NCBI GenBank assembly: GCA_029906195.1
Contig: JARWSJ010000001.1
Location: 1,550,001 to 1,614,000 of the forward strand
DNA length: 64,000 nt
Origin: Chitinophagaceae bacterium 26-R-25
GTDB taxonomy: Bacteria; Bacteroidota; Bacteroidia; Chitinophagales; Chitinophagaceae
Direction: 5' to 3'
Shown here: positions 8,237-27,712 of the stretch, one piece after another
Layout: the number at the start of each line of letters is the position of its first letter
Position numbering within the stretch: the stretch's first letter is position 1
Made by a program: the position numbers and the translations under genes
Notes under the pieces: generated by a model
Told to the model about the DNA's origin: nothing
Databases searched by the model: none
What the model saw: only the letters and a program-made list of their open reading frames with translations

Positions 8237-9649
8237 ATGAAGAAATTATTAATCATCATATTTTCCGTTTCACTTGCAGTTGCTTTTAACTCTTGCTACA
8301 AGGATAAAGGCAATTATACATACAATATACCCGAAGAGCCAGTGGTTACACACCTTGATACGGTGTACAAAGCGGTTGTTGGAGACAGCCTTATTATTAC
8401 ACCGACCATTACCGTAAAGGACAATGCCTCATTAAGCTTCGACTGGCGCATTGGCGGTCCTAATGTGGCCGATCAACACTTCTCCGGATCTTCTTTACGA
8501 GTACTTTACGGATTAGGTACAGGCAGATTTTATGGTCGTTTAACTGTTATCAACAACGATAATGGCATGCGTTACTTTCACGACTTTAAAATAGATGGCA
8601 TCACCAATTTCAGCCTCGGCACAGCCGTGTTAAGTGTTGAAAATAATGTGACACAATTTTCATTTATCAAACCCGATGGTACTGTGCAAGCCAGAATTTA
8701 TGCAGCCGTACAAGGTGAGAACCTGCCTGCAAAACCGATTTGCATGGTACCAACGATCCACCAGCAAATCGTTCCCGTAACCATTTCCAGCTATTGGGTA
8801 ATGACAGAAAATGGAGGTGTTCAGATAGGTGCAGACTCATTGAAACGTGCAAAAGACTTGGCAGGCAACTTTTTTAATGCCCCTGATACAACGAAAGTAA
8901 CGGAGATGTCCGGCACACAACTCGGTGTAATAACAGGCGTCATCAACCACAGGCTGTACGCAGGTTTCTGGCAAACATGGAACATGGCGCCCATTTATGG
9001 CATGTTTGGTGTAGCCTGTGACGGAGACTACAATCTGGCAAACGGTCTCATTTATGCCAGCGGCAACACCGGTGATTATTACATAGGATATGATGCGGTA
9101 AAAAAGAATATCATTCGCTTTAATGTATATGGGCAACCGATGTATTTTGGCACACAGTATAGTGTCATCGGCACCGCGTTTGACCCCACCAATGTAGGCC
9201 TCGACCTGGTAACGATGATGCAGGTAAACAAAGGCAACTGTTTTCTGTTTGGAAAGGCATCCGATGGCACTTTGTATGAGTTGAAGTTCACGGCAAACTT
9301 CACCGGACCGTTCCAGGTTACAACTCTATACAAGCGCGCCTTCAGCCAGCCAGCATTGATCACGGCAACTACAAAATGGCAGGCCACCGACGATGAAATG
9401 TTCTATTTCAACTCGGGCAGCAAAGTATACAGATACAACCCAACCAATCAAAACCTTACAGCGCTTACAACAGACTTCGGTGGTAAAGATGTAACGATGA
9501 TCAAACTCATTGACCAGAATACACTGGTAGCGGGCGTTGAAGGTTCTTTGTATTACCTGAACATCAGCACAGGTAAAAACGGAGATTTGATTAAAAAAAT
9601 AGACGGCATACCGGGTTCACCGGTTGATATGGCAGTAAGGGCACAATAG
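8237..9649 (+). CDS. PKD-like family surface lipoprotein
   Basis: About 470 aa with a lipobox at Cys20 (AVAFNSCYKDKGNYTY). The N-terminal part reads as one Ig/PKD-like fold (VVGDSLIITPTITVKDNASLSFDWRIGG); the rest looks like a beta-propeller-type region with repeated short strands and aromatic turns. SusCD loci with DUF4843 often end in such a protein, and the order here matches. It is likely a ligand-binding accessory. ATG 8237 is preferred over the longer frame from TTG 8189 because it gives a proper signal and avoids repeat-derived residues. The exact family is inferred. Confidence 0.72.
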   Translation: MKKLLIIIFSVSLAVAFNSCYKDKGNYTYNIPEEPVVTHLDTVYKAVVGDSLIITPTITVKDNASLSFDWRIGGPNVADQHFSGSSLRVLYGLGTGRFYGRLTVINNDNGMRYFHDFKIDGITNFSLGTAVLSVENNVTQFSFIKPDGTVQARIYAAVQGENLPAKPICMVPTIHQQIVPVTISSYWVMTENGGVQIGADSLKRAKDLAGNFFNAPDTTKVTEMSGTQLGVITGVINHRLYAGFWQTWNMAPIYGMFGVACDGDYNLANGLIYASGNTGDYYIGYDAVKKNIIRFNVYGQPMYFGTQYSVIGTAFDPTNVGLDLVTMMQVNKGNCFLFGKASDGTLYELKFTANFTGPFQVTTLYKRAFSQPALITATTKWQATDDEMFYFNSGSKVYRYNPTNQNLTALTTDFGGKDVTMIKLIDQNTLVAGVEGSLYYLNISTGKNGDLIKKIDGIPGSPVDMAVRAQ

Positions 9650-17541: not shown

Positions 17542-19050
17542 ATGGCTGTTCATAACAAGATTTTGCTGTTTAATCCAAGAAGTGCAAAAATCACTTTTCG
17601 CGTACCCAATTCAATTCTAAACATCGCCGCATCGGTAGAGGGCAAATATGATTGGGTGGTTGTTGATGGAAACAGGGAAGACGATCCCATGGAAAAGATC
17701 AGCAACTATCTTTCCACGGGCAATTTTAAATACATTGGTTTCACTGTAATGCCCGGGCCGCAACTCAGGCAGGCCGTTGCCTTTTCAAAAAAAATCAAGG
17801 AATTGTATCCCCAAACGACTATGATCTGGGGAGGGTATTTCCCTTCGCAGCAATACAACGCGGTCCTGAAATCGGGATACGTAGATTTTGTTGTGAATGG
17901 CCCTGGTGACCATTGCTTTCCTCAGCTGATCGATGCACTGGAAAATAATACGCCTTATGAGTTGATCAAAAACATCATTTATCGCTCAGGCGACGACATC
18001 ATTAAAACACGGAAGGAAGACCTGATAGAACAGGACACTTTGCCGCCATTGCCGTATGATAAGCTGAATACGATGTATCCAATGGAAAACTATCTCGGTA
18101 AAACCTACCTCGGCAAAAAAACCTTCGCATATCATTCCAGCATTGGCTGTCCGTTTACCTGTTCATTTTGTTCCGTCGTGCCTATTTACGAAGCGAGGTG
18201 GAAAGCCAAATCTGCACAACATATATACAACGATCTCAAGTACATCAAGGATAAATGGGGCGCAGATGCCATAGAATTTCACGACAACAATTTCTTTGTA
18301 TCGGAAAAAAGGGTGGTTGAATTTGCCAAACTTATTAAGCCCGAAAAAATGACCTGGTGGGGTATGGCACGGATTGACACCATGAACAAATTTTCCGATG
18401 AATCATTGGCACTGATTCGAGAAGCAGGTTGCAAGATCATTTTCTTTGGAGCAGAAAGTGGTAACGACGAATTGCTGAAACGCATGGATAAAGGTGGCAC
18501 ACAATCGGGGGCCCAGATCGCAGCATTTGCCGCGAGATTGAAAAAGTTTGACATCATTCCGGAATACTCGTTTGTATTGGGAATGCCTGCACCAACCCCT
18601 GAACTCGTTGAAAAACAAATTGACGACGATATTGCGTTCATAAAAAAGATCAAGAGCATAAACCCTTCCACAGAGATTGTTTTGTACACCTACAGCCCCG
18701 TACCAACCGAGGGTTCGGAGTTGTTTAAAGAAGTGCAAAGCAACGGCTTCCAATTTCCCCAAACGCTGGAAGATTGGGTAAGTCCGCATTGGGAGAATTT
18801 TGACATGCGCAAAAATCCGCTCACACCATGGCTCACACCGGCAATGATCGACAAGATCAGGAATTTTGAAACGGTGCTGAACGGGCGCTATCCAACTGTT
18901 ACAGACATTCGCCTCACCAGTGTAAGAAAGGCAGCCATCAAAGCGGTGGCAACATTGCGTTACAAGATCAATGTGTATCAATATCCATATGAAATCAAAC
19001 TATTACAACGCATTTGGAAATACAGGCAACCGGAAATCCAGGGATTTTAG
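17542..19050 (+). CDS. B12-binding-domain radical SAM enzyme
   Basis: 502 aa. An N-terminal cobalamin-binding-like Rossmann domain (about 5-145; IGFTVMPGP, MIWGGYFPS) precedes a radical SAM barrel with the [4Fe-4S] motif C203-x3-C207-x2-C210 (GCPFTCSFCS). GAESGNDELLKRMDKG is typical of class B radical methyltransferases and BchE/HpnP-like enzymes. The DxHxxG cobalamin-ligand motif is absent, as in many members. Known chemistry: methylation of unactivated carbon or phosphorus, or ring formation. It opens a four-gene plus-strand operon. Confidence 0.9.
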   Translation: MAVHNKILLFNPRSAKITFRVPNSILNIAASVEGKYDWVVVDGNREDDPMEKISNYLSTGNFKYIGFTVMPGPQLRQAVAFSKKIKELYPQTTMIWGGYFPSQQYNAVLKSGYVDFVVNGPGDHCFPQLIDALENNTPYELIKNIIYRSGDDIIKTRKEDLIEQDTLPPLPYDKLNTMYPMENYLGKTYLGKKTFAYHSSIGCPFTCSFCSVVPIYEARWKAKSAQHIYNDLKYIKDKWGADAIEFHDNNFFVSEKRVVEFAKLIKPEKMTWWGMARIDTMNKFSDESLALIREAGCKIIFFGAESGNDELLKRMDKGGTQSGAQIAAFAARLKKFDIIPEYSFVLGMPAPTPELVEKQIDDDIAFIKKIKSINPSTEIVLYTYSPVPTEGSELFKEVQSNGFQFPQTLEDWVSPHWENFDMRKNPLTPWLTPAMIDKIRNFETVLNGRYPTVTDIRLTSVRKAAIKAVATLRYKINVYQYPYEIKLLQRIWKYRQPEIQGF

Positions 19051-19101
19051 GAAGTTGAAAATTGAAAATTGAAAATGGTAGGGGCGAATTGCATTCGCCC
19101 T
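19051..19101. repeat. Rep-B half-element with GGGCGAATTGCATTCGCCC core
   Basis: GAAAATTGAAAATTGAAAAT words start at the preceding stop codon and run into the palindrome GTAGGGGCGAATTGCATTCG. The same composite occurs at 28455 (reverse complement), 41614 and 49622. It keeps the next gene's frame open and so creates a false 18-residue extension. Confidence 0.8.
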
Positions 19102-19115
19102 ACAACCAGAAAACC

Positions 19116-20168
19116 ATGCAACAATCCCTATATCAAACATACCAGCGGTACAAAACATTGCGGACAAATGTGATCACAACTTTGCCCATTGTTATTTTAA
19201 TGCCGCACAGTGCCTGCAACTGTCGCTGTGTGATGTGTGACATCTGGAAGCACAACAATCATCTCAAACAGTTAACGGAAAAGGATGTTGAGAGCCTGAT
19301 CCTCTCGTTAAAGAAATTCAAAACGGTAGAGGTGGTAATGTCCGGCGGCGAAGCGATACTTCACCCGGCATTTTTTTCGTTGTGTGCGATCCTGAAAAAG
19401 CAAAACATCAAAATCACTTTACTTACCAGTGGACATGCCATAAAACGTCATGCTGAAAACCTTGTGAAGTATGTCGACAGCATTATCATTTCCGTTGATG
19501 GAAACGAAGAAATACATAACAAGATCAGGAACATTGAAAACGCATTTGGCAAAACAAAAGAAAGCATCGAAGCAATAAAGGAACTGCAACCAAATTTCAA
19601 AATCACAGGGCGCACCGTCATTCATCAACTGAACTTTCGCATTTGGCCACAGATCATCGATGCTGCCAAACAACTGCACCTTGACAGCATAAGCTTTTTG
19701 CCTGCAGATGTTACAAGCAATGCCTTTGATCATAATGAACAATGGAAGGAAGAAAACAAAGACAAATTGCTGATCGATCAGTCATCTTTACCGGAACTAA
19801 AATCAGTTGTCGATAACATGCTCGAAACACATGCGAATGATTTTGCGAAGCGATTTGTTCTTGAATCGCCTGCCAGGATATGGAGCATTTATCAATACTA
19901 TGCGGCTTTTGCAGGCCTTGCAGAGTTTCCTTACAAAAGATGCAATGCGCCTTGGGTATCGGCAGTTATAGAAGCGGACGGTTCTGTAAAGCCGTGTTTC
20001 TTCCACGATGCTTTTGGCAATGTAAAAGATGATTCACTTGAAAACCTGGTAAACAATGAACAGGCACTTCATTTTAGAAAGTCGATAAATATGGCCGAGA
20101 ATGAAATATGCAGGAAATGTGTTTGCTCATTGTATTTACCGCCGACGGTGAACCCGGGCAGGAACTAG
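19116..20168 (+). CDS. radical SAM enzyme with SPASM-like C-terminus
   Basis: 350 aa. The radical SAM core has C34-x3-C38-x2-C41 (CNCRCVMCDIW) and the SAM-binding VVMSGGEAILHP. Cys276, Cys294, Cys332, Cys335 and Cys337 form a SPASM/twitch-type auxiliary iron-sulfur site (PWVSAVIEADGSVKPCF is characteristic). SPASM enzymes modify peptides or sugars, for example by dehydrogenation or epimerisation (BtrN, NeoN). No precursor peptide or PqqD-like domain is nearby, which favours a small-molecule substrate. ATG 19116 is chosen because the longer frame from TTG 19062 is repeat sequence. The stop codon TAG itself falls in Rep-C words. Confidence 0.88.
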   Translation: MQQSLYQTYQRYKTLRTNVITTLPIVILMPHSACNCRCVMCDIWKHNNHLKQLTEKDVESLILSLKKFKTVEVVMSGGEAILHPAFFSLCAILKKQNIKITLLTSGHAIKRHAENLVKYVDSIIISVDGNEEIHNKIRNIENAFGKTKESIEAIKELQPNFKITGRTVIHQLNFRIWPQIIDAAKQLHLDSISFLPADVTSNAFDHNEQWKEENKDKLLIDQSSLPELKSVVDNMLETHANDFAKRFVLESPARIWSIYQYYAAFAGLAEFPYKRCNAPWVSAVIEADGSVKPCFFHDAFGNVKDDSLENLVNNEQALHFRKSINMAENEICRKCVCSLYLPPTVNPGRN

Positions 20169-20505
20169 GAATTAGAAATTAGGAATTCAATGTCGTTTAG
20201 TTAAGCTGTTTGAAAAATTAAGAGCATGTCGCTTGTCATCCCGACGAAGGAGGGATCTGGGTCTAACGCTAACGAACAGTATGTGTAAACAATCACGCAG
20301 ATCCCTCCTTCGTCGGGATGACAAGCGGTCTTTTCTAACGGATCATAACCACCATTCCGTTCGGAAAAAATCCGTAACTAAAAGACATTGAATTAAGAAT
20401 TAAGAATTTTTGTGTGTTGCATTAAACGTAATATGAACCATTTATTAGTTTCGGAGTCATATCGCTCATAACTCATAACTCACAACTCATAACATAGAAA
20501 AAGCA
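20162..20505. repeat. repeat-only gap: Rep-C half, Rep-H perfect hairpin, Rep-K words
   Basis: This 337-bp gap holds no gene. Rep-C words (20162-20189) overlap the preceding stop. Rep-H is a hairpin with two perfect 30-base arms, 20230-20259 and 20298-20327 (core CCCGACGAAGGAGGGATCTG), and a 38-base loop. Rep-K words (CTCATAACTCATAACTCACA, 20459-20493) end just before the next start. The gap lies between co-oriented genes of one operon, so the hairpin may attenuate expression. Confidence 0.85.
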
Positions 20506-21963
20506 ATGAAAAAAATACTATTCACGCACTCGTATTTTTTGCACTTTGATAAAAAGCAGGAGGCTATTGGCAAACCATATGCGCCATTGGCAACCCTGTA
20601 TGCAGCAGCATGGATGCGTGCAAACGGTTATGAGGTTTCGCTCTTCGACACCATGTTTGTCAAAAACGCAGATGAACTGATCGAAGCGTTAAATACAGAT
20701 ATGCCCGACCTGCTGGTCATTTACGATGACGGATTCAACTACCTCACGAAGATGTGCCTGACCAACATGCGCGAAGCTGCATTCCGTATGATCAATCTCG
20801 CAAAACGATGCGGCATTACTGTCATCGTGTCCAGCTCCGATGCAACGGATCACTATGATCAATACCTGCAGGCCGGTGCAGATTTCATTTTGATCGGAGA
20901 AGGAGAGATGACTTTGCTGGAACTTACCAATGCATTGGCATCCGGAACAAATGACCTGCATAATATCCCAGGCATCGTCTTTCATGAAAATGGAACCAGC
21001 ACAACAACAGCAAAACGAAACGTCTTGAAAGATCTGGATAGTCTGCCGCAGCCCGCATGGGACCTGGTTGACATCGACCGCTACAAGGAAATGTGGCTGA
21101 GACATGCAGGCTATTTTTCCATCAACATAGCTACTACTAGAGGATGCCCGTTCAAATGTAATTGGTGCGCAAAACCAATTTATGGCAACCGCTACAATTC
21201 ACGTTCACCTCAAAAAGTAGTAGACGAACTGAAGTATTTAATGGAAAATCATGGCTTCGACCATGTTTGGTTCTGCGATGATATTTTTGGTCTAAAACCC
21301 GGATGGGTAGAGGAGTTTGCCAAACTTGTACGAAAAGAAAATTTGTCCTTTACATTCAAAATACAATCGCGGGCCGATCTTCTATTGCAACCGGCTTATG
21401 TAGCTTCACTGCAAAAAGCGGGTTGCGAAAATGCATGGATGGGTGCGGAAAGCGGTTCCCAAAAAATACTGGATGCAATGGATAAAGGCATCACTGTAGA
21501 ACAAATACATGAGGCAACAAACCTGCTGAAGGTCTACGAAATAAAGCCTTCATTGTTCATTCAGTTTGGTTATCTGGGTGAGACAAAAGAAGACATAAAG
21601 CTTACCATAAAAATGATCAACGAGCTAATGCCGCATGAAATTGGCATTTCCGTTTCGTATCCTTTGCCTGGAACCGGCTTCTATGAAAAAGTAAAGGCTG
21701 CGATGCAGGAAAAGCACAACTGGACGGACTCTGGTGAACTTGCATTAATGTTTAGAAATACCTATGCACCATCATTTTACAAACAACTGCACCGTTATGT
21801 GCACAACAATTATAAAAAACATATCGCTACTATAAAATGGCGCGAGTGGTTCAAACAGTCCGGAAAAAGTGATGTAAAGAAAATGCTGTCAGCTTTCTAC
21901 TATTTTCCGGCCACGTGGCTTGACAGAGTAAGACTATTCTCACTGCAACACAAGAAAGCATGA
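20506..21963 (+). CDS. second B12-binding-domain radical SAM enzyme
   Basis: 485 aa. The N-terminal cobalamin-binding-like domain (about 1-150: PYAPLATLYAAAWMRANGYE, then GADFILIGEGEMTLLEL) is followed by a radical SAM barrel with C214-x3-C218-x2-C221 (GCPFKCNWCAKP) and MGAESGSQKILDAMDKG. Class B radical SAM family. It differs clearly from the 17542 protein, so the two probably catalyse separate steps rather than being a recent duplicate. The start codon ATG of the next methyltransferase overlaps its stop (ATGA). Confidence 0.9.
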   Translation: MKKILFTHSYFLHFDKKQEAIGKPYAPLATLYAAAWMRANGYEVSLFDTMFVKNADELIEALNTDMPDLLVIYDDGFNYLTKMCLTNMREAAFRMINLAKRCGITVIVSSSDATDHYDQYLQAGADFILIGEGEMTLLELTNALASGTNDLHNIPGIVFHENGTSTTTAKRNVLKDLDSLPQPAWDLVDIDRYKEMWLRHAGYFSINIATTRGCPFKCNWCAKPIYGNRYNSRSPQKVVDELKYLMENHGFDHVWFCDDIFGLKPGWVEEFAKLVRKENLSFTFKIQSRADLLLQPAYVASLQKAGCENAWMGAESGSQKILDAMDKGITVEQIHEATNLLKVYEIKPSLFIQFGYLGETKEDIKLTIKMINELMPHEIGISVSYPLPGTGFYEKVKAAMQEKHNWTDSGELALMFRNTYAPSFYKQLHRYVHNNYKKHIATIKWREWFKQSGKSDVKKMLSAFYYFPATWLDRVRLFSLQHKKA

Positions 21964-23841: not shown

Positions 23842-24000
23842 TTCATTTCTTTAGTAAGGACTATACAAGTACATACGGCTTCACTCGAAAAAGGTTGCTT
23901 GCGACCTGCTATAAATAATTGCACAAGCAGGTGATAACAAGTTAATAACAAAAATAACAGGCACCAGCCGATGCGTTCATCTCACGAACCCCTGCTGAAA

Positions 24001-24043
24001 ACAAAAGAAACAACCTGCAAAAATTACGGGTTGTTTCTTTTGT
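24001..24043 (-). terminator. terminator after the protease-nuclease fusion gene
   Basis: Perfect 15-base arms ACAAAAGAAACAACC / GGTTGTTTCTTTTGT with a 13-base loop. The T-rich end follows the stem on the minus strand, 26 bp after the stop of the 24070 gene. Confidence 0.8.
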
Positions 24044-24069
24044 CGCTTGATTTTGGCACCGTCTTACAA

Positions 24070-26244
24070 CTACAAATCAAGGTGCTCCGCAATTGCTTTA
24101 ATATTAACAGAAGGCAGAAAATCGGGTGATTCATACAGCGCCCTCACATCTTCCGGATCAACTTCTGTTATTTTCTTAATTGTTTGATCGCCCTTTCCCA
24201 GTTGCCAGGCGCTGCTCCACAAACTTGCCAAACTATATGCGCCGCTGGCAAAAAGTTTCGGAACTATGGTCTTTCCACTCTTCTTCCAAAAATTATCGGG
24301 AAAGTCTTTATCATCTTTTGCAAACGCATCCACAATAACTTCAGGATTAATTGTTTTAAATGTTTGTTTCATTAAATCAACAACAGACGCTGCAGCCTCT
24401 TTGCCCGAACCAAGAGCGACAAGCTTTTTATATTTTGCTTCTTTGATGAGTTTTTCAACAGCGGGAAAAATCTCCTTATTGTATCTGTTGATCATAGTCG
24501 CCTCAAAGGCCTCGTGCACCCCATCGCCAATCTTTTTTCCACTAGGTGAAGGCTTTCCGTTAAACATGTAAGAAATATGAAGCGGCTGGCAAGCATCGCC
24601 CACATAGTGCGCCAGAACACCTGATGCAGCTACGAAACCGGTTAGGTTCCCTTTTTTAACATAGCCTACCATCTCAAGAAATATCTGCCACACCCTGAAG
24701 GGCAAAATGCCCTTGCTACTGTCTTTGACGGCCTTGTCCGTATAATACTGCAGCCATTCATCCGGCGTGAGGTATTTCATGTTTGCGCCTTTACCGGTGC
24801 AAAGCTCCAGCAATGTTTTGCCATCACTGTTGGGCTTGTCCATATCGGCAAAGTGGTTGGGGTTTTCCAATGATCTTTTAAAATCTCCGCCTACAATTTT
24901 CCAAATAAGATCGGGCACATCAGCTAATGGCGTATAGTCAAGCGCCTTTCTGGCATTCTTAATGGCGCTATCCGTAATCAGCGTTTTATCTTCGAAAGTG
25001 ATCAAACTTAAATTTTGCTGAAAGACCTTTTTCAGTTGTGTGCTTGTAATCATTTTTGCCGCAATATTGGCAATGGTATAATGTCCCACTTCCCCCCAGG
25101 TATAGTCAGCATCGGAGTTCCATCCGGAAACAAGGTCAATATTAAGTTCCCGCAATACATTTGATAAACAAGTGCCCAGCGCATAGGGGTGATTGTATGT
25201 CTTGCCATCGTCTGTGAAACAATGTTGACCCCATTGAATGGCAAGGGGTTGGTTTTTCTTACTCTCGTCATCATCATCATTCGCCAGTACCCAGATTGTG
25301 CCTGAATCACCGTGTTTCGTTGCAAGCCCCGTAGCATGGTCTTTCGCGCCGATCAGGAAGTCGGAAATATAGTCCAAACCACCGACAGATTTGTATCTAT
25401 AAAACAAAGCGCTTATTTCACCATTTAATAATCCACTGGCTGCTCCAAAAGCAGTAACCGCCTTGCCAATTAGATTAAGTGAAAGATTGGTAGTGCTCAG
25501 ATTGAAAACACTTTGCAGTGTTCCTATATTAAAAACATCGGTCTTCCAGTATTTAATGTTGTCTATTTCTATTAAACCAATATCTGCATTAACGACCGTA
25601 TTTGGTGCACTCCAACCGTTATATAGTTTTTCAAAAGAGATATGACCAAGTGCCTTGTCTGAACTTTTTCCAATTGGCACCAACGTTCCTTTCACCTTTG
25701 TATACACTATTGTTCCAGGTGTCCCGGTGACATGTTTATTTGTGATCGCATAATATTTGTTGCCGTCAGAAACAATGCAACCAAGCGATGCTGTTCGCCG
25801 GATTCCCTGCGATTCAATGATCAGCGGATATCCGCCTCCAATATAATCGGAAGGGAAGGTCAAATCTCCTTCATTAACGATCTCATCATTGTCCTGTAAA
25901 GCGGAGGGCGCTTCGATCACACAAAGAGGCACTTCTCTGCCATCCGGCAAATAAACTTTTGAAGGTATGTAGTTGTCAAACTTGTTAGCCTTGTCATCTT
26001 TTGCAGCGACCGAAAAAGTAGTCCATTTCTTAACAAAAACTAGAATACACGGCCATGACGAACTATCGACAAATGTATTGTCCAGTGTTTTCGGTTTATC
26101 ATCGTTTTTTTTACGTCTGCGATATTTCCCGATCGCAGTTCCTATTACATTCTCCTTTCGCATTAAGTGAACGTGAAATGCTTCACGTGCGTCGAGCAGA
26201 TCTTTAATAGAAAGGAAGTCATATTGATTATGTGTGGCTGGCAT
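24070..26244 (-). CDS. trypsin-like protease fused to an S1/P1-type zinc nuclease/phospholipase domain
   Basis: 724 aa without a signal peptide or membrane segment. Residues about 1-115 resemble the N-terminal ENVIGTAIGK module of NAL1-like trypsin-fold proteins. Residues 145-370 form a chymotrypsin-fold protease with a plausible triad His171 (ITNKHV), Asp221 (NADIGLIEI) and Ser314 (KHGDSGT). Residues 383-690 match the P1/S1 nuclease family: Trp383-x4-His388 (WGEVGH), Asp442, His464, His546-x3-Asp550-x5-His556 (AHYVGDACQPLH) and His577-x3-Glu581. These spacings equal those of the P1 nuclease zinc ligands, with Asp replaced by Glu at the last. In P1 nuclease the first residue is the Trp, whose free amino group binds zinc; here it is internal, directly after the protease. 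It is a single-gene unit with its own terminator. Substrate may be nucleic acid or phospholipid. Confidence 0.85.
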   Translation of the reverse strand: MPATHNQYDFLSIKDLLDAREAFHVHLMRKENVIGTAIGKYRRRKKNDDKPKTLDNTFVDSSSWPCILVFVKKWTTFSVAAKDDKANKFDNYIPSKVYLPDGREVPLCVIEAPSALQDNDEIVNEGDLTFPSDYIGGGYPLIIESQGIRRTASLGCIVSDGNKYYAITNKHVTGTPGTIVYTKVKGTLVPIGKSSDKALGHISFEKLYNGWSAPNTVVNADIGLIEIDNIKYWKTDVFNIGTLQSVFNLSTTNLSLNLIGKAVTAFGAASGLLNGEISALFYRYKSVGGLDYISDFLIGAKDHATGLATKHGDSGTIWVLANDDDDESKKNQPLAIQWGQHCFTDDGKTYNHPYALGTCLSNVLRELNIDLVSGWNSDADYTWGEVGHYTIANIAAKMITSTQLKKVFQQNLSLITFEDKTLITDSAIKNARKALDYTPLADVPDLIWKIVGGDFKRSLENPNHFADMDKPNSDGKTLLELCTGKGANMKYLTPDEWLQYYTDKAVKDSSKGILPFRVWQIFLEMVGYVKKGNLTGFVAASGVLAHYVGDACQPLHISYMFNGKPSPSGKKIGDGVHEAFEATMINRYNKEIFPAVEKLIKEAKYKKLVALGSGKEAAASVVDLMKQTFKTINPEVIVDAFAKDDKDFPDNFWKKSGKTIVPKLFASGAYSLASLWSSAWQLGKGDQTIKKITEVDPEDVRALYESPDFLPSVNIKAIAEHLDL

Positions 26245-26638
26245 AAAAAAAATCGTTTAATTTTTTAACAGATAAATGGACGGTTGGTTGTGAAATCGCA
26301 GATGAGGGTAGGGAAGGACGAGCTACAGTCAATAACGCTGTCTAATGACAAATAACGCGTTCAAAATGATTTGACTTTTCAAACTAATGATCAACAGAAA
26401 AAATCGACTATAAAGTTTTGGAAGAAAAACTACAGGCATTGCTGCGCAAACGGAAAACTGAATGTTTCCGTCCGGAAAGATTTAGTAACATAGCATTTTG
26501 GTTTAGGTGGTTATTTGAATGCTGTACAAATTATTGACTTGGTTTAATATTGTCAATAGGCTGGTATTTAATTTTTATTAAGAAAATGTAACCAATACCC
26601 ATTTCCTAACTGCTGGTTTCGCCTTCTTCTTTTGCAAC
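26245..26638. other. 394-bp gap without a recognisable gene
   Basis: A/T-rich stretch between the start of the fusion gene and the stop of the AI-2E permease. I see no repeat family, no open frame worth calling and no clear terminator; it should hold the promoter of the fusion gene on the minus strand. Confidence 0.5.
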
Positions 26639-27712
26639 TTATGCTTGCCTGACCTTGTTTTTTTCCAACCATGAATTAAAAATGGTATAAAACACAGCGA
26701 GTATAATCGCCCCTTTAAACATACCCGTAAAGCCCCAGGCTACAAGGCCACCGATAACTCCCAGGAACAAAACAAGAAAAGGAAGTTTACCGCTTCTGGC
26801 AATGAGAACGGGCTTCAATACTGCATCGACAATTAAAACAGCAACGCCCCAAACCGCAATAAAAATAGCGCCACCACTATGTCCCTGCATGGCGAGCCAA
26901 ACAACTACCGGTATGAATACGATCAACGGTCCGACTTGTATCAACACCAAAAAATAAACAATGGCAGCGAGGCCAAGCGCAAACGGAATGCCTTCGATCG
27001 CAAAACCTATCCATGAAACAACAGCCGCTATAAAGGCAGTGCCCATTACACCAATGGCAACACCTTTTACAGCCTGTGCCGTTGCATCGACCAACGCATA
27101 ACCATCTTCTTTGCCAAACATGTAGGTAAGTGTTGTGCGTACCGGCACCATTATTTTACGACCGCTTACAAGAAAGACTGCCGACACAATAATGCCTGCA
27201 ATAAACTCTAAAGCAACGCCAAGCATTCCGGCACCGCTTGTCACTACACGATGCAGCAACATTCTTAACTGAGGCTCGTAAGCACCGACGGTCTCTTTGG
27301 GTCGGTCCTGCAATTGCTGCCAGAACGCGTCTATATCATCTCCGATAAATGGGATATTTGTAATCCAACCGGGAAGCGAAGGCAATCCATTTTCTCTTGC
27401 GTTGCCTATCCAATGGATCGCTTCTTTTACATGCAGACTCAATGCAGATATCATGTAGATCACCGGCACCGCGATGATCGCAATTAGCAAAATAGAATAC
27501 ACAACCGCTGCTAATTTTCTTCTTTGCCCAAACAATTGCACAAGCCTTTCAAATGGCTTTGCAAACGACACCGCAAAAATGATAGCAAAAGTAAACACAC
27601 CAAAGAAAGCCTGCAACACAGTAAACAAAGCATAAAGCAATCCAAGCAGCAAAAGGAGTATCAATACAGTCTCCGTTATTCGCTTCGAATTTGGTTGTGA
27701 AGGCTCGGTCAT
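26639..27712 (-). CDS. AI-2E family transporter (PerM-like)
   Basis: 357-aa polytopic inner-membrane protein: two N-terminal helices (VLILLLLLGLLYALFTVLQA and the next), a soluble amphipathic segment about 110-180, and a C-terminal cluster of helices (GLAAIVYFLVLIQVGPLIVF, then VAVLIVDAVLKPVLIARSG) typical of the PF01594 family. Members export signalling molecules or act as ion antiporters; the substrate is unclear. ATG 27712 (MTEPSQPNSKR) is preferred; the longer frame from 27871 runs through Rep-B and would add repeat-coded residues ([11 protein letters not shown]). Confidence 0.88.
   Translation of the reverse strand: MTEPSQPNSKRITETVLILLLLLGLLYALFTVLQAFFGVFTFAIIFAVSFAKPFERLVQLFGQRRKLAAVVYSILLIAIIAVPVIYMISALSLHVKEAIHWIGNARENGLPSLPGWITNIPFIGDDIDAFWQQLQDRPKETVGAYEPQLRMLLHRVVTSGAGMLGVALEFIAGIIVSAVFLVSGRKIMVPVRTTLTYMFGKEDGYALVDATAQAVKGVAIGVMGTAFIAAVVSWIGFAIEGIPFALGLAAIVYFLVLIQVGPLIVFIPVVVWLAMQGHSGGAIFIAVWGVAVLIVDAVLKPVLIARSGKLPFLVLFLGVIGGLVAWGFTGMFKGAIILAVFYTIFNSWLEKNKVRQA

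Follow-up and report, generated by a model that had tools for sequence, protein, structure and literature searches.

We found that one gene in the window, a stretch of 64,000 nucleotides from Chitinophagaceae bacterium 26-R-25, encodes a Nal1-type trypsin-fold serine protease joined in a single chain to a domain with the S1/P1 nuclease and zinc phospholipase C fold. The tryptophan that forms the N-terminus of the mature relatives lies inside this chain, as Trp383. A sequence-only reading had claimed this order of a trypsin-like and an S1/P1-fold domain, which profile and structure comparison confirmed, and had placed the Trp internally, which the translated open reading frame and the structure comparison bore out. 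We rate as evenly balanced the proposal of a cytosolic zymogen, self-contained and activating itself when its protease cuts before Trp383. The cut site, the fused protease as the cutter, the substrate, the trigger and a role in defence are what we infer.

Domain organization and active sites

The N-terminal half had the fold and the His-Asp-Ser triad of Nal1-type trypsin-fold proteases, and its proteolytic activity is predicted from sequence and model. The C-terminal domain had the all-helical fold of the S1/P1 nuclease and zinc phospholipase C superfamily. Trp383 and eight predicted zinc ligands (H388, D442, H464, H546, D550, H556, H577, and E581) reproduced the Trp plus His/Asp/Glu set of a three-zinc site, and metal binding is predicted from this pattern. 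The features are listed in Table 1.

A search for other fusions with the same join yielded homologues from several phyla. The alignment comprised 26 intact rows, including the query, and was extended by 11 to 37 rows, 33 of them distinct. All twelve catalytic positions (triad, Trp383, and the eight ligands) were invariant in the 37 rows, and the triad and the nine zinc-site positions of the sequence-only reading were thus upheld. Because of this invariance, both enzymes seem to have been kept active. The gene was present in a single copy in its own genome.

Table 1. Positions of the fusion gene, its parts and the surrounding variable stretch in the window.
Feature	Position	Strand	Basis
Complete fusion gene, 724 aa, starting with ATG and including the stop codon	24070..26244	-	ORF translation
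N-terminal Nal1-type trypsin-fold serine protease, residues 1-374	25123..26244	-	
His171, triad	25732..25734	-	37/37 rows
Asp221, triad	25582..25584	-	37/37 rows
Ser314, triad nucleophile in GDSG	25303..25305	-	37/37 rows
Junction, residues 372-382; supposed cut 382/383	25099..25131	-	Alignment and full-length model
Trp383, corresponding to the Trp that starts mature S1/P1 and phospholipase C enzymes	25096..25098	-	37/37 rows and structure comparison
S1/P1-nuclease / zinc phospholipase C-fold domain, residues 383-724	24073..25098	-	
Fusion-bearing variable stretch	23905..26659	.	About 100 bp instead in same-genus G109; different single gene in G009

Residue 308, six positions ahead of Ser314, is by counting presumably the equivalent of chymotrypsin residue 189. 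It was Asn in 15, Ala in 4, Glu in 3, Thr in 2, Gln in 1 and Gly in 1 of the 26 rows. Trypsin-like cutting after Lys or Arg was therefore not indicated, since this residue was never Asp. Among 345 Bacteroidota genomes, the protease module alone gave two matches, each in a reading frame with room for the two domains; one was the window gene and the other a confirmed full fusion, and the module was not found with other effectors in these genomes. HMMER matches of the protease profile to a fimbrial fusion chain (8e-6), in which no stretch passed alone, were taken as chance.

The sequence of the C-terminal domain leaned towards a nuclease rather than a phospholipase: its Pfam match was 3e-6 for nuclease and 0.026 for phospholipase C, and its PDB profile matches were to nucleases only, with a best value of 3.7e-5. 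The structure scores of the nuclease and phospholipase comparison were tied at 17.6 and 17.5. The last zinc ligand of P1 nuclease is Asp, and the fusion family had Glu581 at this position. The secreted nucleases S1, P1, and SmNuc1 share the fold, the WGxxGH start and the zinc ligand set with this domain; unlike the fusion, they are single-domain proteins with a signal peptide, and their Trp is freed by signal peptidase. The HET-C domain, which is linked to cell death, has been predicted to have the same fold and active site; its description in the available passages lists conserved residues, four His and three acidic, without mentioning a Trp (PMC3482391).

Trp383 and the junction

Structure comparison paired Trp383 with the zinc-binding N-terminal residue of the known enzymes. 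In both the full-length model and the model of the C-terminal domain alone, the structural match started at residue 382 or 383, and Trp383 was aligned with residue 21 of S1 nuclease, residue 27 of SmNuc1, and residue 1 of B. cereus phospholipase C. The domain modelled alone from Trp383 had a mean pLDDT of 85.8, a pTM of 0.90, and a value of 88 over its first ten residues, whereas the full-length model had a pLDDT below 50 at residues 378-384, a contrast that rests on a shallow alignment of 14 rows. This difference between the models fits the zymogen idea but is not proof of it. The full-length model also lined Trp383 up with the N-terminal Trp of the relatives, so the models leave it undecided whether the fused form is blocked.

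The junction was uniform in length and varied in sequence. Residues 362-392 had no length change in 37/37 rows (26 plus the 11 added), and the spacing from the protease to Trp383 was constant across them. W375 and N376 were kept in 33 and 34 of the 37 rows, respectively, and this constant, partly conserved linker may be a structural join instead of a cut site. The residue before Trp383 was Tyr in 21 rows, Thr in 14, Ser in 1, and Val in 1, and in the Bacteroidota members the Tyr stood one position earlier. Since this residue can be Thr, Tyr, Ser, or Val, there appeared to be no strict shared specificity and no single cut motif. No Met occurred at positions 366-383 in any of the 26 rows; therefore, the C-terminal domain was not started internally at Trp383.

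Secretion with a signal peptide is a usual trait of the S1/P1 and phospholipase C superfamily, although it does not define the fold. We looked at 25 loci of secreted relatives from the bacterial family of the window organism, one of which (L022) was not an S1/P1 gene. In all 24 relatives with the motif, the Trp directly followed a hydrophobic N-terminal stretch. The hydropathy of the first 40 residues was 2.17-3.57 in these 24 proteins, compared with 0.22-1.26 in the 37 fusion rows. The 40 residues ahead of Trp383 in the window protein peaked at 1.45. No signal peptide or hydrophobic N-terminal stretch was found in the 37 rows, and the low N-terminal hydropathy agreed with the earlier claim of a missing signal peptide.

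Published passages on two relatives describe what a free Trp does. The mature chain of S1 nuclease begins at Trp21, and its N-terminal main chain binds the zinc cluster (PMC5201275, in the passages available). The proenzyme of Listeria broad-range phospholipase C (PC-PLC) is inactive, and an earlier result cited in the accessible text of PMC10576769 is that a single residue ahead of W1 turns the enzyme off; substitutions of W1 other than W1F reduce activity. By the same logic, the fusion should have no activity until it is cut, and cleavage between residues 382 and 383 should complete the zinc centre. On this analogy, a cut before Trp383 is the most parsimonious way for the enzyme to become active.

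Distribution of the fusion family

The family was rare and scattered. Full-length copies occupied 18 loci in genome contigs from Bacteroidota, one Isosphaeraceae and one Terriglobia genome, Sphingobium, Sphingomonas, Bradyrhizobium, and Burkholderia; a row missing from the VIA-align lists does not count as evidence of absence. In the bacterial family of the window organism, 5/294 genomes carried the fusion, that of the window included, and in one of them (G225) it was split into two frames. In a sample of 337 Alphaproteobacteria genomes, the family was present only in the centre genome itself. The full-length family was found in 4/72,556 plasmid records, two of these in pieces, and the neighbours of the plasmid copies were unrelated; 50,697 phage records gave no match.

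Three copies were broken: L005 (G225) in two pieces, L050 (Neorhizobium pNgVX) in four, and L053 (Sinorhizobium B11) in two. These breaks are either real decay or sequencing error. In a further genome (G241, L022 1504-1593), only a 30-residue N-terminal remnant was left, corresponding to residues 7-36 with 63% identity. Collectively, the patchy spread, the plasmid copies with unrelated neighbours and the broken copies look like those of accessory, possibly costly cargo. No sensor domain was seen in the fusion.

A homologue adjoining a gasdermin gene

One homologue lay next to a bacterial gasdermin. In B. tropiciagri SEMIA 6148 (G1331, found via L044), a second family member at L077:6574-8943 (-) was 36% identical to the window protein over the full length and retained both domains, the triad, the Trp, and all ligands. 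It stood 191 bp upstream of the gasdermin gene L077:5603-6382 (-) on the same strand, and the latter matched the solved gasdermin 7n50_A at 4.7e-168 and the PADLOC bGSDM model at 4.3e-48. The gasdermin-linked member was on a long branch in the tree. Near this pair (L077 3095-12535) were a caspase-like CHAT gene and genes resembling RmrA and RmrT. The B. tropiciagri gasdermin was reportedly described by Johnson et al. in 2022. Proteases encoded alongside activate bacterial gasdermins (PMC9079055), and neither this commentary nor the available passages of the review PMC10989679 describe the fusion neighbour, including its C-terminal domain.

The PADLOC model PDLC03017, named 'trypsin-like', fitted this gasdermin neighbour at 3.3e-257 (2e-256 in the genome-wide match) and, judging from the score, was probably built from that gene. 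The model matched nearly the whole length of the window protein at 2.7e-19, with 1.3e-7 and 2.4e-10 for the two halves separately. PDLC03017 had first been suspected to be a retron effector, which was dropped when it proved to fit the B. tropiciagri gene; the accessible parts of the PADLOC papers contained no passage on it. The model matched 1/198 Bacteroidota and 2/398 Pseudomonadota genomes, and the second Pseudomonadota match (G1045) was a different protein, composed of a trypsin and an ATPase, in a CARD-NLR-like locus. This locus (L065 4522-15278) also encoded a trypsin and Endonuclease_NS fusion, a subtilase and trypsin fusion, and a large protein with an AAA match beside the trypsin and ATPase-like protein.

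The association with a gasdermin was exceptional. A gasdermin profile match occurred in 1 of the 25 genomes searched, 24 of which carry the fusion; 23 of these 24 had no match at E <= 0.01, the window genome among them, although the profile may miss very divergent gasdermins. Two of the genomes considered (G002 and that of L035) had identical fusion proteins and are probably the same species. Across 185 Bradyrhizobium genomes, the fusion family was present in 23 and a gasdermin match in 5, with both in only 1. A gasdermin operon as the general context was thus rejected for the window gene, and the Bradyrhizobium loci L036-L047 and the plasmid copies had no gasdermin match either. Since 23/24 fusion-bearing genomes lacked a match, the protein's own C-terminal domain is the likelier usual effector. 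Given the neighbour of the one homologue, the protease may also, or instead, act on an outside substrate.

Comparison with known systems

The sequence-only reading had called the pairing new to it. This held for the pairing itself: searches of the open-licence PMC literature, with subscription papers and preprints mostly outside, found no account in which a Nal1-type protease is fused to an S1/P1-fold domain. The wider principle is not new, since protease-switched nucleases of bacterial immunity and a trypsin-nuclease fusion have already been published (PMC12799240 and PMC13236601, in the passages available). In Hachiman, AVAST, Lamassu, and DRT, an MBL pro-nuclease is cut by a partner trypsin-like protease, so that, as proposed for the fusion, a serine protease cut switches a nuclease on. 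According to the available text, the MBL nuclease is always a separate gene and is loop-gated (PMC12799240), whereas the fusion has an S1/P1-fold domain in the same chain and a proposed N-terminal Trp switch.

LypC of the Caulobacter CARD-NLR-like system resembles the fusion in having an N-terminal trypsin-like peptidase and a C-terminal nuclease in one chain. In the accessible passages of PMC13236601, its nuclease is aligned with EndA/NucA-type enzymes, unlike the S1/P1 fold here, the system has three genes, and lysis was unaffected when the nuclease active site was mutated. Listeria PC-PLC shares the fold of the C-terminal domain and is inactive until a protease exposes Trp1; unlike the fusion, it is secreted, has a short propeptide and is cut in trans by a metalloprotease (PMC10576769, as far as its available text goes). 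Rice NARROW LEAF 1 (NAL1) is a plant protein with about 25% identity, and its solved chains are listed without an S1/P1 domain. The B. tropiciagri gasdermin neighbour has the same two domains as the window protein and differs by its adjoining gasdermin, which is absent at the window gene.

Proposed activation and alternative readings

In the proposed mechanism, the S1/P1-fold domain would be tethered at rest to the protease through Trp383, whose alpha-amine, needed to complete the zinc site, would be locked in a peptide bond. The chain would have to leave the active-site cleft, and the hydrolase would be off. Once triggered, perhaps by altered oligomerisation, the Nal1-type protease of the same or a neighbouring copy would cut the 382-383 bond and turn Trp383 into an N-terminus, completing the zinc centre. 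The freed domain could then hydrolyse intracellular nucleic acid (more likely) or phospholipid, leading to growth stop or cell death, probably as a response to stress or phage. We can put slightly less trust in the fuller claim of a one-polypeptide suicide enzyme, in which the freed Trp383 alpha-amine would complete the tri-zinc centre of a cytosolic hydrolase. Acting downstream of a bacterial immune protease, it would be a stand-alone executioner in place of gasdermin, with the B. tropiciagri lineage having both. If true, this would be a chemically distinct proteolytic activation, by creating a metal ligand instead of opening a gate. A fold known from textbooks in secreted S1/P1 and phospholipase C enzymes would then probably serve as a conflict effector in the cytosol, and the extended C-terminal half of the protease that neighbours the earliest bacterial gasdermins to be crystallised could be explained in a testable way. 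The proposed cut predicts one exact new N-terminus, Trp383.

The fused protease would be the obvious cutter, and the varied residue before Trp383 and the gasdermin neighbour leave other readings. We consider it rather unlikely that the protease leaves the pre-Trp383 bond uncut and works on another protein, a gasdermin or other partner, with the S1/P1-fold domain as a sensor, a localisation module or a second effector. The position of the B. tropiciagri homologue just upstream of a crystallised gasdermin, the activation of such gasdermins by neighbouring proteases (PMC9079055), the close fit of the PADLOC trypsin-like model to that neighbour, and the dispensable nuclease of LypC in the passages of PMC13236601 argue for such a substrate. 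Against it stand the scarcity of gasdermins (1/24 fusion-bearing genomes, and 1 of the 23 family-bearing Bradyrhizobium genomes), the lack of a common neighbour that could serve as substrate, and the invariant Trp and zinc ligands, which would be superfluous in a domain that only binds. It is distinctly improbable, in our judgement, that the S1/P1-fold domain is active uncut, with Trp383 serving for packing, a zinc centre formed without a free amine and a fusion that merely unites two enzymes. The constant linker and the register of Trp383 in the full-length model agree with this, as does HET-C, a domain of the same predicted fold that the available text of PMC3482391 describes without mention of a Trp; however, one extra residue before W1 reportedly inactivates Listeria PC-PLC (PMC10576769, partial text), the Trp directly follows the hydrophobic stretch in 24/24 secreted relatives, and its retention in 37/37 rows suggests that its special role persists.

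A separate cellular protease might cut before Trp383, for instance under stress, while the fused protease does something else. Maturation of Listeria PC-PLC in trans by a different protease (partial text of PMC10576769) and the varying pre-Trp residue, which suits a broad-specificity cutter, are consistent with this; but a suitable protease would be required across hosts from several phyla, and the two active sites staying intact and together would go unexplained, so we hold it to be highly improbable. We would be surprised if the protein were a housekeeping or nutritional intracellular hydrolase outside any conflict. Most copies have no recognised defence genes alongside, and the Bradyrhizobium orthologues lie amid ordinary genes that they have in common, a LysR regulator among them, as this reading expects. 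It fits poorly with the patchy presence (5/294 family genomes, one split, and neither same-genus genome tested), the unrelated neighbours of the plasmid copies, the broken copies and the one gasdermin neighbour.

Genomic surroundings of the window gene

The fusion was absent from both same-genus genomes tested. In G109 (L083, about 9379-9484), the genes that flank the window gene were about 100 bp apart, compared with 2.75 kb here. In G009 (L084 9751-12408), the same spot was occupied by another single gene, encoding a 786-residue protein with an HELTH motif that we take by eye to be DUF4157-like.

Mechanical clustering of 294 ORFs from 22 loci, which recovered the fusion itself in 20/22, revealed no conserved partner gene outside the Bradyrhizobium orthologues and a near-identical Sphingobium pair (L034/L052), except for generic families. 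The latter were a LysR regulator, present in eight Bradyrhizobium loci and in L051, and two single genes, one common to L048 and L051 and the other to L051 and L053. Since distant members had no common neighbour beyond generic genes, the fusion protein probably acts alone.

Pfam and PADLOC scans of ten neighbours in the window found no protease-pair or MBL family, no CARD or ATPase partner gene and no NLR-like gene. The ten included methyltransferases, radical SAM proteins, an AI-2E transporter, GH92, and LGT. A defence-island context was rejected, since the PADLOC matches of two methyltransferases to mad2 and of a radical SAM/SPASM protein to pVip seem to reflect broad shared superfamilies and not systems; the pVip match on the SPASM protein is probably at the superfamily level. 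Three radical SAM genes followed one another at window positions 17542-21960, two of them carrying B12-binding domains and the third SPASM.
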